From assembly GCA_031271075.1 (NCBI GenBank), contig JAISWN010000162.1, positions 1 through 5,481 on the forward strand: 5,481 nt of DNA. The letters run 5' to 3'. The stretch's first letter is position 1. Each line of letters opens with the position of its first letter. Both the position numbers and the translations under genes were made by a program. Origin of the DNA: Treponema sp. Lineage in GTDB: Bacteria > Spirochaetota > Spirochaetia > Treponematales > Breznakiellaceae. The notes beneath the pieces are model-generated. The model did not search any database. It was not told the origin of the DNA and saw only the letters and a program-made list of their open reading frames with translations. This document shows positions 1 to 5,481 of this stretch, in pieces.

Positions 1-2097
1 CCCCTGGGGAAGCTCCTGGCGCGGCATTTTTCGATTGTCAGGATCTTCAGCGTGGCCTGGACGGGCCGGGCCGTTTCCATGTTCGCCGTGGTTTTGGCCC
101 CCTTTGCCGCCGGCGCGGGGCGGCGGGATCTGGCCCTTGGTTTAACGGTCCTGGGGGTTGCCCTGTTCCACATCATCCGGGGAATCGGCATGATCGGCAA
201 CAACCCGATCCTCAGTTCCCTTTCCGAGGGGCCCGACCGGGGTTCCTACATGACCCAGATCCAGATCATCAACAGCGCCACGGGCATGTTTTCCAGTTTC
301 GCCGTTGCCATGCTCCTGGGGCGGGACCCTCCCCTCTTCCTCTACACCGTAATCCTGGCCCTGGGGATCATCACCGGGGTAACCGGGGGGATAATGGTAA
401 GGGGGATACCTGAGCCGCCGGTGGAGGAACGGGGCGGCAAGATAAAACTTACCCGGATTTTTAAAAACGCCCTGGAGTTGCCGGGGATAAAGCTCTTTGT
501 GGGCATCCTCTTTTTTGTGGCCCTTGTCTCCGGGGTGTCCCGGGCCTTCCTGGTGGTTTATTCCCGGGAGGTGTTTATGCAGAGCGACGGCATGGTCTCC
601 CTGTACGCCGTATTCGGCGGCCTGGGAAACCTGATGATAGGACTCCTTATCAAATTCTTCGTGGACCGGATAGGGGCGAAGCCGATATTTATCATCTGCG
701 TCTTTACCGGCCTTGCCAGCATGATCCCCATTGTGCTGTTTCCCCGGACGGGGATGGATAATGTTACTACCGGCATACTCTTCCTCTCCCTCATCTTTTT
801 TGTGATGAACTTCGGCTTCCTGGGGGCGGAGGGGATTGCCCAGACCTACTTCCTGGGGCTGATCCCCCTCAGGCTTATGCTGGACATGGGGATCCTGTAC
901 TTCTTCATCTTCGGCGTTGCCGGCGCGGGGGGTTCCTTTGCCGCGGGGCTGCTCCTGGACACCCTTGCCGGCCTCGGGCTTTCCCCCTTTGCCAGTTTCA
1001 AGATCCTCTACACCGCCATGGTTATTTTTGGCATCCTGATTCTGGTACTCCAGCGTAAACTTGTTCCCCTGGGGGCCCTACCTTTCCGGGGCGCTTTGGA
1101 GGTGATATTCTCCTTCCGGGATCTCCGGGCCATAGCCCTGCTCGACAGGCTCAACAAAACCAGTGACTCCTCGGAGGAACAGCAGATCCTGGGGGCCCTG
1201 CACGACACCCCCTCCCAGCTTGCCGTCAAGGGCCTCCTGGTCCGGGCCCGATCTCCCCGGCTTGCCATCAGGATGGAATCCCTGCGGGCCATGGAAACCC
1301 TGAAAAACCTGACCGAAGACGCGGAACAGGCTTTGATGGAAGACCTGGTAAACAACCCCTACACCACCGCCTACATTTCCGCCCGTATCCTGGGGAACCA
1401 CGGGGCCTTTTCCGCCATACCCCTGCTCAGGGAACTGGCCGTTTCGGACGACTACATGCTTGCCGGGGAGGCGACCATCGCCCTGGCCCGCCTGAAGGAC
1501 GACGCCTTCCGGCCCCGGATTGAGGAGATGATCCTCGAAACCCGGAACCCGCGGCTCAAGATCATGGGGGTGGAGGCTTTTGGGATCTACGGCTCCCAAA
1601 ACTCGCTTTCCGTGCTGCTGGACATCCTGAGAAGTTCCAATCCCCCGCCCTACCTGCGGGACGAGGTGATCCTGGCCATGGCTTCGATTCTGGATACCCA
1701 AAACTACTTCTATACGATTCTGGTTCGTTTCCTGGAAAACCAGGACCTGGCGCCCACCCTGGCCATGGACGAGGCGGAATCGGCCTTTGAGTTCTACCAT
1801 TCCAACCTGGGATGCCGCCGGTTTTACTTCCGAAAGAAAAATCTGGCCCTTATCACCGGCCACGCGAAAGATATCCAGGCCGCGGTTTCCGCCTACATCC
1901 GCGAAAAAAACGGCGCCGCCCTTTCCCGCTGGATTCTGGAACTGCCTGAAGAACAGTGTTCCACGGTAGTTAAGGTTGTACTCGCCGAGGCGGTACTGGA
2001 CAACGATCTGTGTTCCCTTACCCGCCTGCAGTTGCTTATCGCTCACTGGGCGGCCCATGTACTGCGCCGGTGGGTTCTTAGGTTAAAGCAGGGGTAG
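1..2097 (+). CDS. MFS-like membrane transporter fused to C-terminal HEAT-type repeats (5' partial)
   Basis: The frame is open from the first base, so the GTG at 52 is not the start: the true start lies upstream. Numbering from base 1 gives 698 residues. Residues about 25 to 355 hold some ten hydrophobic segments, best fitted as TM3 to TM12 of a 12-TM major facilitator; the loop with DRIGAKP (residues 222-228) resembles the MFS loop 8-9 motif, which suggests only TM1-2 and the N-terminus are missing. From about residue 375 the protein becomes soluble and helical, with HEAT/armadillo-like helix pairs (about 405-430, 454-480, 486-500, 517-543, 551-564), then a charged helical tail to the TAG stop. 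Family knowledge: MFS proteins move small solutes across the inner membrane; HEAT repeats bind proteins. Substrate cannot be told. Inference: the HEAT part is cytoplasmic. Codon use matches the following genes. Membrane identity is firm, MFS fairly sure, HEAT assignment likely but judged by eye. Confidence 0.85.
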   Translation, partial: PLGKLLARHFSIVRIFSVAWTGRAVSMFAVVLAPFAAGAGRRDLALGLTVLGVALFHIIRGIGMIGNNPILSSLSEGPDRGSYMTQIQIINSATGMFSSFAVAMLLGRDPPLFLYTVILALGIITGVTGGIMVRGIPEPPVEERGGKIKLTRIFKNALELPGIKLFVGILFFVALVSGVSRAFLVVYSREVFMQSDGMVSLYAVFGGLGNLMIGLLIKFFVDRIGAKPIFIICVFTGLASMIPIVLFPRTGMDNVTTGILFLSLIFFVMNFGFLGAEGIAQTYFLGLIPLRLMLDMGILYFFIFGVAGAGGSFAAGLLLDTLAGLGLSPFASFKILYTAMVIFGILILVLQRKLVPLGALPFRGALEVIFSFRDLRAIALLDRLNKTSDSSEEQQILGALHDTPSQLAVKGLLVRARSPRLAIRMESLRAMETLKNLTEDAEQALMEDLVNNPYTTAYISARILGNHGAFSAIPLLRELAVSDDYMLAGEATIALARLKDDAFRPRIEEMILETRNPRLKIMGVEAFGIYGSQNSLSVLLDILRSSNPPPYLRDEVILAMASILDTQNYFYTILVRFLENQDLAPTLAMDEAESAFEFYHSNLGCRRFYFRKKNLALITGHAKDIQAAVSAYIREKNGAALSRWILELPEEQCSTVVKVVLAEAVLDNDLCSLTRLQLLIAHWAAHVLRRWVLRLKQG
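1129..1695 (+). other. HEAT-type helical repeat region of the transporter gene
   Basis: This part of the first gene encodes successive amphipathic helix pairs of about 30-35 residues with the pattern expected of HEAT repeats: alanine- and leucine-rich helices such as AGEATIALARL and LKIMGVEAFGIYG, followed by short turns with proline, glycine or asparagine. It follows the last transmembrane helix after a linker of roughly 20 residues. The repeat count (about five) and boundaries are approximate. A docking or regulatory role for a partner protein is inference from the fold only. Confidence 0.6.
2090..2094 (+). promoter_or_regulatory. Probable ribosome binding site for the SH3 lipoprotein gene
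   Basis: AGGGG lies 6 nt before the ATG at 2101 and inside the last codons of the upstream gene. It is a reasonable Shine-Dalgarno match at normal spacing and favours the ATG at 2101 over the second ATG at 2137, whose nearest purine run (GGGGAGA, 2114-2120) is about 16 nt away. Confidence 0.55.
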
Positions 2098-2100
2098 TCT

Positions 2101-3483
2101 ATGTATTGGAGATGGGGAGACTCGATCCGCCGGATCATGGCCGGGAAAGGCCGGTTTTTGCTCTGTTTGTTTTTCCTTGGCCTTCCGCTTTTCCTCTCCT
2201 CCTGTTCCCGCAGGATCGGCTGGGGGGTGCTGCTCTGGTCATCCCAGAACCCGCCGATTCCTTCCGGAACGGTGTTGCCGGTGTACCTCCGTTCCGACAT
2301 CAGCCAGATGTGGGTAGTGGGCATCCCCAACTCTTACCGGAGGGCGGAGAATAAGATCGACAAATTCGAAATACCCCTGGCCCAGTTTGAATTCCTGGGC
2401 AGCCGGAGGAAGGCGGAGCAGCGGCTCCGGAGTTTTGCCCCCTACACCCTTACCTACGCCGAAAACCTTCAGGACGGCCTGCCGATCAGGGACGCGGCCG
2501 ACAACAACGCCCGCCGGGTCTACCGGCTAAAGGCGGGGGAAATAATAAAGATCCTTGGCCGGGTGGAAGGGAGCCCGGCGCTAGGCGCCAGCGGAGATTC
2601 CCTGCCCGGCGAATGGTACCAGGTTATGACCGAGGACGGCAGCAAGGGCTACTGTTTCTCCTACCGGCTCAAGTTTTTTGAGCATACCGGAGGCGTCCTG
2701 GCGGTGGAACAGGAAGCCGAAAAGGATGAGGAAGACCCGGAACTGGATTGGGTGCTGGCCCAGACCTGGTCTCCGGAAATTTACGGGATTATGCTCAACA
2801 ACGGGCGTATCAACCTGGGGGACCTTTCCCGGGGCTGGCGCTTTTCCCCCGGACAGGATACGGGGATAGCCCATATTTATACTTCCGGCCTGGACCAGAG
2901 CTTTCCCTACACAAAGATACGCCGGAGCGGAACCCGGTCCTGGCGCTTTGAGGGAACCAACCTTCAAATGAGCCTCCGTTCCGCCAGCACCCTGGCGGTT
3001 CAGTACACCGAAGCCGGAGGGGTGCTGCGGACCCTTCTTTTTGTGACCCTTCCCGCCGAGATTGATGACATCGTCGAACAGGAGACCACCCGGCGTGAAA
3101 ATCTTTTCGCCGCCATTTACGAACAGGGGCCGGTTTTTACCAGTACCTATTACGGAACCCTTTCCTTTAGCGAGGAGGGAAATTTTACCTGGACCGGCAA
3201 CCAGCGCCTTATCCCCCAGCCGATCAACCCTTCCGCCGCGGATCACGGTTTCATCGATATGAACCTGTACCTCGCCCCGGAATTGCAGGAGCGCTACAGC
3301 GGGGCTTTTACCCTGCGTTTCGCCGCCGAAACAGGCGGAGAGATCCCGCTGCGTTTTATGTACACCTTGGATGAGCAGGGCCTCCGCGTAGAGTACGCCC
3401 CGGATACCAGTATGGACGGGATCCTGGTTGCCCGGCGTTCCTCTTCCCCCATGATCCTCTACTTCTTCAAACCCCGGATCTGA
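2101..3483 (+). CDS. SH3 domain-containing lipoprotein of unknown function
   Basis: A 460-residue protein with a lipoprotein signal: basic N-region (R10, R11, K16, R18), hydrophobic core from F19 to about L32, and lipobox L-S-S-C with the lipidated Cys at residue 35. It should therefore be exported and anchored to a membrane on the periplasmic side or at the surface. Residues about 127-193 look like a bacterial SH3 (SH3b) domain: LPIRDAAD at the start, a short strand LKAGEIIKILGR, then GEWYQVMTEDGSKGYCFSYRL. Such domains bind peptidoglycan or proteins; the ligand here is unknown. Residues about 200-460 are rich in aromatic and beta-strand-like segments and I do not recognise them. The start at 2101 has a ribosome site; M13 (2137) would give a shorter, more typical signal peptide and remains possible. 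The gene starts 3 nt after the first gene's stop and is in the same frame. It ends in TGA one base before the ABC-F start. Confidence 0.88.
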   Translation: MYWRWGDSIRRIMAGKGRFLLCLFFLGLPLFLSSCSRRIGWGVLLWSSQNPPIPSGTVLPVYLRSDISQMWVVGIPNSYRRAENKIDKFEIPLAQFEFLGSRRKAEQRLRSFAPYTLTYAENLQDGLPIRDAADNNARRVYRLKAGEIIKILGRVEGSPALGASGDSLPGEWYQVMTEDGSKGYCFSYRLKFFEHTGGVLAVEQEAEKDEEDPELDWVLAQTWSPEIYGIMLNNGRINLGDLSRGWRFSPGQDTGIAHIYTSGLDQSFPYTKIRRSGTRSWRFEGTNLQMSLRSASTLAVQYTEAGGVLRTLLFVTLPAEIDDIVEQETTRRENLFAAIYEQGPVFTSTYYGTLSFSEEGNFTWTGNQRLIPQPINPSAADHGFIDMNLYLAPELQERYSGAFTLRFAAETGGEIPLRFMYTLDEQGLRVEYAPDTSMDGILVARRSSSPMILYFFKPRI

Positions 3484-3484
3484 C

Positions 3485-4078
3485 ATGGCCTTTGTGCAAT
3501 TCTCCCAGATTTCCCTTGCCTTCGGGGATCGGGACATTCTGAAAAACGTCAGCCTCCGCCTTGCCTCCGGTTCCCGGGCGGGGCTTGCGGGGGCAAACGG
3601 CTCGGGGAAATCCACCCTGATGAAGATCATCGCCGGCCTTATCCCCGCGGATTCGGGGGATCGGGCTATCCAGCGGGGGACCCGGGTTTCCTACCTTCCC
3701 CAGTCGGGGATCGTACACCAGGGCAAAAAACTGCGGGAGGAGGCGGAAACCGCCTTCGAGCCGGCCCGGGCCATGCTCCTGCGGGCGGAGGAGATAGGCG
3801 CCGGGCTTGAAAAGGCGAAAAGTGACGGCGGCAAGACCGCGCTGCTCCTGGAGGAATACCACCGGCTCCAGGAAGCGGTGGAAGTTTCCGGCTACTACCG
3901 CCGGGAGGCCGGTATTTCCGCGGTTCTTACGGGGCTGGGTTTTTCCGAAGCGGATCTTGAGCGGGATACGGCTGAATTCTCCGGGGGCTGGCAGATGCGG
4001 ATAGCCCTGGCAAAGGCGCTGCTGGAACAGCCGGATATCCTCCTCCTGGACGAACCGACCAACTACCTGGACATTTAG
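3485..4078 (+). CDS. N-terminal fragment of the ABC-F protein (first ATPase domain up to the D-loop)
   Basis: If TAG terminates, the product is 197 residues: Walker A, Q-loop region (YLPQ), signature and Walker B of NBD1, ending exactly after DEPTNYLDI. It lacks the H-switch histidine and all of NBD2, so it cannot form the usual head-to-tail ATP sandwich by itself and is unlikely to be a working ABC-F factor. The ATG start is supported by the standard N-terminus of the family (beta strand, then Walker A at residue 36). It lies one base after the TGA of the lipoprotein gene and has no clear Shine-Dalgarno sequence, which points to translational coupling by re-initiation. Confidence 0.7.
   Translation: MAFVQFSQISLAFGDRDILKNVSLRLASGSRAGLAGANGSGKSTLMKIIAGLIPADSGDRAIQRGTRVSYLPQSGIVHQGKKLREEAETAFEPARAMLLRAEEIGAGLEKAKSDGGKTALLLEEYHRLQEAVEVSGYYRREAGISAVLTGLGFSEADLERDTAEFSGGWQMRIALAKALLEQPDILLLDEPTNYLDI
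4076..4078 (+). other. In-frame amber codon in the D-loop of ABC-F domain 1
   Basis: TAG directly follows the codons for DEPTNYLDI. In ABC-F proteins the next residue is usually Glu, Asp or Gln; in NBD2 of this same gene the aligned codon is CAG (Gln, codon 501, after DEPTNHLDL). A single C-to-T transition from CAG, or G-to-T from GAG, explains the stop. Coding resumes at once with ARARLEDWL and SHDRYF in the expected register. Confidence 0.9.
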
Positions 4079-5481
4079 GCCCGGGCCAGGCTGGAGGACT
4101 GGCTTGGCAGTTTTACCGGGGCCTATCTCCTGGTTTCCCACGACCGCTACTTTCTGGACGTAACGGTGAACGAGGTCTACGAGATCTTCCAGGGCAGCCT
4201 GAAACGCTACGCGGGCAATTACTCGGCCTACGAGAAGATCCGGCAGCAGGAACTGGAAAGCCTCTTGAAACGCTACGAGGCCCAGCGGGAGGAGATCGCC
4301 AAGACCGAAGCCCTCATCCGCCGCTTCCGCTACAAGGCCAGCAAGGCGGCCTTTGCCCAGGAACTTATCAAGCGGCTTGAAAAAATGGAGCCTATTGAGA
4401 TCCCCGAATCCCTCAAGAAGATCAGCATCCCCTTTCCTCCCCCGCCCCACTCGGGCCGCAAGGTTCTTACCCTGGAGGGACTGGGAAAGAGTTACGGCCC
4501 GCGGCGGATCTTCTCGGGCCTCGATCTCCTTGTCGAGAAGGGGGAGCGGCTCCTGGTGGTGGGCCGGAACGGGGCGGGAAAGAGCACCCTGCTCCGTATC
4601 CTTGCCGGGGCGGATCGGGACTTTGAGGGAACTTACAGCTACGGAAGCGGCGTAAGGCCGGGCTATTTCTGCCAGGACGACACCGCGCTGCCCGGCGGCG
4701 GTCAGGCGGATACGGCTTCTTCCGGGGGGCAGACTGAAGGGGCCGCTGCCGGACCCCTTGCCGGCTCCCGGCAGGTACTGGAATTCCTGGAGGCCGAAGC
4801 CCCGACGGCCCTTATCCCCCGGCTCAGGGACATGCTGGGGGCCTTCCTCTTCCGGGGAGACGAGGTGTACAAGCCCGTATCGGTACTCTCCGGCGGGGAA
4901 AGAAGCCGCCTGGCCCTGCTCAGACTGCTCCTCAGACCCCTTAACCTGCTGATCCTCGACGAACCCACGAACCACCTGGATCTCCAGTCCAAGGATGTCC
5001 TTTTGGATACCCTCAGGACATTCGACGGAACCATCATTTTCGTGTCCCATGACCGGGGCTTTATGGAGGCCCTGTCTACCAAAACCCTGGAACTGGCCCC
5101 ACCCGGCCCGGAGACGGCGGACAGGGAAGGCGGCGCGGGCGACAGGCCCCAGAGCCGTACCCGGCTCTTTTACGGCAAGTACGCTTACTACCTGGAGCGA
5201 ACCAGGGGGGAAACGGCGTCCGGGGCGGCCTTGCCGGCGGCCAAAGCCGCGCCGGAAATGAAAACAGCCCCCGTCGCCGCGGCGGGTTCCGGCCCGGATA
5301 CAGGTTCCGGCGCTACGGCGGGCTCCAACCCGAAGGCGGGCTCCAACCCGAAGGCGGGTTATAACCCGCCAGTGATCCTCATCAAAGCCGCCGCCCGGCG
5401 GGAAGCGGTAAAACAGCGGCAGACCCTGATCCGCCGGCTGGAACGGCAGGAGGCGGAGATCCTCAAAGCCCTGGAGGAACT
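4079..5481 (+). CDS. C-terminal part of the ABC-F protein: linker, second ATPase domain, coiled-coil start (partial)
   Basis: 467 codons without a stop continue the ABC-F frame after the amber and leave the window open. They encode the NBD1 H-switch, the interdomain helices, an intact NBD2 with every ATP-binding motif, and the start of a Lys/Arg/Glu-rich coiled coil. If this stretch is translated separately, candidate in-frame starts are GTG at 4166 and ATG at 4385 (codon 301); neither has a recognisable ribosome site, so independent expression is doubtful. The ATG would give an NBD2-only protein. Three Gly/Ala/Pro-rich insertions occur here: after the Q-loop (about 403-429), after the second H-switch (about 537-559) and before the coiled coil (about 573-629); I see none of this kind in NBD1. 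Confidence 0.6.
5318..5371 (+). repeat. Three tandem copies of an 18-bp unit in the ABC-F C-terminal linker
   Basis: The unit GCGGGCTCCAACCCGAAG occurs exactly twice (5318-5335, 5336-5353) and a third, diverged copy follows at 5354-5371. Being 18 bp it keeps frame and encodes AGSNPK, AGSNPK, AGYNPP. It sits in a low-complexity linker between NBD2 and the terminal coiled coil, where length changes are tolerated; replication slippage is the likely origin. Confidence 0.9.
5353..5370. repeat. 18-bp perfect palindrome
   Basis: GGCGGGTTATAACCCGCC is identical to its reverse complement over all 18 bases and overlaps the third copy of the tandem repeat. It lies inside coding sequence. Whether it is a binding site or only a by-product of repeat divergence cannot be told from one copy. 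Confidence 0.85.

Follow-up and report, generated by a model that had tools for sequence, protein, structure and literature searches.

An in-frame amber codon private to one Treponema assembly in a YheS-like ABC-F gene, probably a sequence error or a recent mutation

The window, by which we mean the whole stretch of 5,481 nucleotides analyzed here, is one entire contig (C316) among the 394 of a Treponema draft genome with a completeness of 62.93% and a contamination of 2.4%. Its last frame is an ABC-F gene crossed by a TAG codon (Table 1). The ATG at 3485 starts a frame of 197 codons and, past the TAG, the same frame is open for another 467 codons up to the contig end; profile scans returned ABC-F family matches from both pieces, upstream and downstream of the stop. 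Moreover, when 1157 stops from sampled contigs and the window were scored for coding potential on both sides, with 50 open codons required on each side, the TAG of the window received the highest score of all, and its frame is therefore not open by chance. A preliminary description of this DNA had reported a lone TAG within an otherwise complete frame. Indeed, the TAG is in frame, but the gene itself is incomplete, because the contig end at 5481 falls inside it and truncates its 3′ end. The same description correctly noted that no frameshift is involved, as the two pieces join with exactly one codon between them in 29 relatives. It was also right that the motifs of the second nucleotide-binding domain (NBD2) are kept: GRNGAGKST, LSGGERSRL, LLILDEPTNHLD and SHDR, which we take to be the named motifs of NBD2, are all visible by eye in the translation.

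Table 1. Positions of the genes, codons and sequence features discussed in the text, numbered from the first base of the window.
Feature	Position	Strand	Remark
Neighboring gene with HEAT repeats and an MFS-like match below the Pfam cut-off	1..2097	+	No internal stop; open at contig start
Intact neighboring gene with bacterial SH3 domain	2101..3483	+	1 base from its stop codon to the ABC-F ATG
Upstream piece of the ABC-F gene: NBD1 through Walker B and D-loop	3485..4078	+	197 codons plus TAG
In-frame TAG, codon 198 of the ABC-F gene	4076..4078	+	Directly after LLLDEPTNYLDI of NBD1
Perfect 10-base palindrome GGCCCGGGCC	4078..4087	+	From last base of TAG to base before AGG
Remaining frame: end of NBD1, ABC_tran_Xtn linker, NBD2, part of tail	4079..5479	+	Truncated by contig end
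AGG (Arg), codon 202	4088..4090	+	TGG (Trp) in relatives; twelve bases past TAG start
GTG, putative restart	4166..4168	+	First common start codon of downstream frame
TGC (Cys), codon 396	4670..4672	+	Ser in relatives; sole further departure from strictly conserved columns

The gene does not stand alone at this locus. A homologue of the SH3-domain neighbor is located directly upstream of it in 14/14 relatives tested, and the two genes thus form a conserved pair. The protein encoded at 1-2097 has an MFS-like front with HEAT repeats behind it, and a homologue is positioned near the same locus in 3 of the 14 relatives tested.

Several lines of evidence point to a YheS-type ABC-F ATPase. The solved structures that the downstream piece matches best are those of YheS (PDB 9nlh, E = 6e-72; PDB 9vvi, E = 3e-71), with 246 and 244 bits as compared to at most 214 bits for EttA, Uup and YbiT, a comparison that applies to the downstream piece only. 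Similarly, PRK10636, presumably YheS, was among the best NCBIfam matches. Neither piece reached a cut-off in that scan (best 25 of 185 and best 25 of 177 families), and the equivalog scores are low because the two pieces were scanned separately. The likeness to YheS-type proteins therefore consists of two NBDs, a linker and the best structure match of the downstream piece, while the differences are the stop at codon 198 and pieces scoring below the NCBIfam cut-offs of the families shown. The DNA encodes two ABC ATPase domains and the ABC_tran_Xtn linker, as expected of such a protein, but not as one chain, which the TAG breaks after codon 197. The ARE-type ABC-F ribosomal protection proteins (PoxtA, OptrA, Vga, Msr) belong to the same superfamily and matched the gene more weakly; in the scans of the upstream and downstream pieces (best 25 of 185 and best 25 of 177 families, respectively) resistance families remained below their own cut-offs, and there was no sign of a resistance gene here. 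The nearest named relatives among the homologues listed were Treponema assemblies. E. coli ABC-F proteins, including YheS, are reported to inhibit protein synthesis.

The codon that the TAG replaces is highly conserved. In a first comparison codon 198 was glutamate in 29/29 loci besides the window. With the addition of the 17 closest of 38 further loci (the remaining 21, more distant, were left out), glutamate was encoded in 46/46 DNA loci, by GAA in 32 and by GAG in 14, two pairs of these loci being identical in sequence around the site. Glutamate was likewise present in 118/118 proteins that cover the site among the 120 listed of 7880 homologues; the other two of the 120, P0005 and P0006, both begin downstream of it. 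The preliminary description had drawn attention to the counterpart of the TAG position in NBD2, which is in fact glutamine (CAG) as claimed. As a hint to what a decoded TAG might specify, however, this CAG is misleading, because the NBD1 position is glutamate in all of these loci and proteins. A glutamine-charged amber tRNA was excluded for the same reason.

No second internal stop of this kind was found in the genomes compared. Of the other six members of the genus, five carry the gene with no internal stop, and the sixth, whose genome is 59% complete, had no match at 1e-150. A survey of the phylum returned matches in 212/392 genomes at 1e-80, and among the matches listed 11 were flagged for a stop, these being the window and 10 others. 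In 10/10 of the latter the stop (TAG in 5, TAA in 4, TGA in 1) is one of the last seven codons matched, and these are therefore the genes' own terminators. Among the sequences compared, the TAG is private to this assembly.

The motif DEPTNxLD is present in 109/120 of the short homologues listed (best 120 of 653), and 9 of the 109, the window included, end exactly one residue past it, as compared to between 2 and 6 for every position from 2 to 15. These counts hint weakly at an excess of homologues ending one residue past DEPTNxLD, where assemblies may have broken because the motif is conserved. We considered and rejected the idea that stops recur at this codon: the excess is weak, two of the nine (P0129 and P0130) carry 'partial' in their names, as would be expected at a contig edge, and in the genome that matches P0124 most closely (97%) the frame is uninterrupted.

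The TAG is accompanied by a second change. Codon 202, which is TGG in 46/46 loci and tryptophan in 118/118 listed proteins, is AGG in the window. The preliminary description had called the gene otherwise intact and had missed this change, although it is true that the gene shows no clear decay. To be specific, against a set of 106 full-length homologues from the 120 (length 600-800, starting with M, D-loop in place), the window departs at 3/159 strictly conserved columns, namely 198 (stop), 202 (W to R) and 396 (S to C). For P0001, the nearest relative, the count is 2/161; the median protein has no departure, and only 1/106 has three or more. At a looser cut the window has 5/228 departures, a level reached by 5/106 proteins, and P0001 has 7; at the loosest cut it has 8/275, reached by 7/106 proteins, and P0001 has 9. 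The window and P0001 are thus both in the upper tail at these looser cuts. Because P0001 itself departs at strictly conserved columns, general decay of the window gene is not indicated. Identity to P0001 is 42-48/50 per block through residue 400 and is alike on either side of the stop, so that both parts of the gene are conserved to much the same degree as in the nearest intact relative. Conservation that is equal around the stop, together with the lack of clear decay, implies that the stop is either very young or not real.

Codons 198 and 202 sit at the two ends of the GC palindrome. Given the stop, the probability that one of the other two strict departures falls within four codons of it is P = 0.087. 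Another copy of GGCCCGGGCC occurs in the gene at 3763-3772, and A follows both copies; after the copy at 4078-4087, relatives have T (of TGG) in place of this A. A templated change from elsewhere in the genome was rejected, as the 21-base stretch had, besides its own position, a single match, with 3 mismatches.

We favor, at roughly even odds (about 0.5), the view that the TAG is not read as an amino acid but stems from a local error in the consensus of a fragmented draft genome. Under this reading the changes at codons 198 and 202 would share one origin, a patch of erroneous bases in the consensus. It is preferred over a fresh nonsense mutation because a second invariant codon is changed close by, two of the three strict departures lying within five codons; their closeness at the ends of the palindrome weakly favors such a patch, although it could also be due to chance, given the P value above. 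An assembly in 394 contigs that is 62.93% complete is consistent with an error, as is the lack of the stop in every relative compared. One study reports miscalls preceded by inverted repeats and GGC, yet it also describes GGC and GGT as unreliable predictors of the positions at which errors occur (PMC3622629), which counts against this reading. It also counts against a consensus error that the contig has no other interruption in any of its three frames, and is thus not generally poor, and that the window lies in the upper tail of departures at the looser cuts. Furthermore, real nonsense alleles are common in non-essential genes. As with ordinary nonsense alleles and consensus errors in draft genomes, there is a single stop in one assembly without clear decay; the window differs from them in that a second conserved codon is changed close by.

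A fresh nonsense mutation in the strain, to which we give somewhat less than an even chance, would mean that RF1 terminates at the TAG and that the cell either does without the YheS-like function or has it supplied by other ABC-F proteins. Indeed, RF1 (prfA) is encoded on contig C120 (528 bits versus a cut-off of 423). The protein carries PAT and GGQ, which we take to be release-factor motifs, and its own gene terminates in TAG. More broadly, prfA was above the cut-off in 21/24 genomes searched, the other three being incomplete assemblies. Three release-factor-like matches below the prfA cut-off were also noted in the same Treponema genome, on contigs C328, C227 and C81, and a TAG flagged in the prfA of genome G007 lies directly before VNERL, the likely protein start. 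A fresh nonsense mutation would require nothing special, since 160/664 codons of the gene are one step from a stop, and an allele of very recent origin would, as observed, show no clear decay in the rest of the gene. The Trp change only four codons on would nevertheless be unexpected in an allele so young (closeness, P = 0.087). If the bases are real, the predicted product of termination by RF1 is an NBD1 fragment of 197 residues that lacks the linker and NBD2. Recent nonsense mutation or sequence error had been the first choice of the preliminary description, and this choice is supported in that the change is private and recoding is unsupported.

It is very unlikely that the two pieces are instead a split working pair, in which an NBD1 piece cooperates with a linker-NBD2 piece restarted, for example, at GTG 4166. 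A start codon is available there, and the metagenome relatives P0005 and P0006 both start at one and the same residue (VTVNEV), which lies two codons ahead of this GTG. These two are short homologues on contigs of 1815 and 1730 bases whose start matches the 4160 region, and a contig edge would explain where they begin. An N-terminal partner fragment for them was not found among the best 120 of 653 short homologues or among the 14 of a second list, and the gene runs through the site as a single frame both within the genus and among the phylum matches listed. The idea of a stop upstream of P0005 and P0006 was likewise dropped, as no partner fragment was found on contigs of their lengths.

Extremely unlikely, in our estimation, is a TAG decoded by a suppressor tRNA or as pyrrolysine to give the full protein. 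The open frame on both sides and its high coding score would fit such decoding, and a suppressor tRNA could be encoded in the missing part of the 63%-complete genome. A CUA anticodon was nevertheless absent at 22 tRNA hits in this genome and in 60 sampled contigs (4 all N), which is moderate evidence because the genome is incomplete. Since pylT is atypical (PMC8318568), this absence says less about a pyrrolysine tRNA. Pyrrolysine was rejected for lack of a PylS match: there was none in the 63%-complete genome, in a search whose control was over the cut-off in 1/14 genomes, and 0/145 family genomes were over the cut-off, with weak matches below it in 55. The window gene shares only the in-frame TAG with pyrrolysine decoding of UAG; it is not a methylamine methyltransferase, and neither a PylS match nor a CUA tRNA was found.

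The use of TAG elsewhere in the genome also argues against decoding. In a sample of 63 contigs and 447 kb, of which 433 kb were readable because five contigs were all N, long non-overlapping ORFs ended in TAA 107 times, in TGA 79 times and in TAG 72 times (258 in total). For example, TAG terminates two adjacent full-length permease genes, and the same ABC-F gene is TAG-terminated in five relatives. Stops with open frames on both sides comprised 304 TAG, 402 TAA and 451 TGA before scoring (n = 1157, window included), as compared to 10 TAG, 8 TAA and 5 TGA at a coding-score cut of 0.15 (n = 23). This slight over-representation of TAG at higher cuts runs contrary to our preferred reading and would favor decoding. 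No second TAG-crossed case was recognized among the 16 next-ranked stops of the 63 sampled contigs (five all N), of which seven were checked against Pfam (four on both sides, three on the right side only) and nine were judged by eye only, several of these being taken as antisense frames. Each Pfam-scanned piece holds its own full or near-full domain, and these stops are therefore best explained as the end of one gene followed by the next. A comparison of G004 ORFs with the sampled contigs gave 25 shared regions, with three stops in two of them (two TGA and one TAG), a sample too small to weigh; two of the three stops are in one region, which by eye seems to be in the wrong frame. With RF1 present and no second TAG-crossed gene recognized in the sample, the genome does not look like one in which TAG is reassigned throughout. 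All known bacterial reassignments involve UGA, according to the introduction of PMC8629427.

Among the papers that a literature search listed, none was by title on a decoded amber codon in an ABC-F gene; one concerns the yeast ABCF protein New1 in termination (PMC7145556). Least probable of all is that, despite RF1, the part of the genome missing from the assembly (about a third) encodes an amber suppressor tRNA that inserts an amino acid at the single D-loop UAG of the YheS-like translation factor, the level of this factor thereby reporting termination efficiency. Amber suppression and programmed recoding, both raised in the preliminary description, are not supported, in view of the glutamate of relatives, the lack of a CUA tRNA or PylS match, the presence of RF1 and the common use of TAG as a terminator. 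No CUA tRNA found and a sense codon in all relatives, a combination that the preliminary description would have taken as a refutation, is what we observed as far as a 63%-complete assembly and the relatives compared can show.

The finding is therefore likely to be ordinary, a sequence error or a fresh mutation and not a new reading of TAG. The codons of relatives, RF1, the usual role of TAG as terminator and the nearby invariant change make error or nonsense much more probable than recoding, even without reads. Should the TAG be real, ordinary termination by RF1 is predicted and the YheS-like protein would be lost. One false lead in the search for recoded stop codons in spirochaetes is removed.
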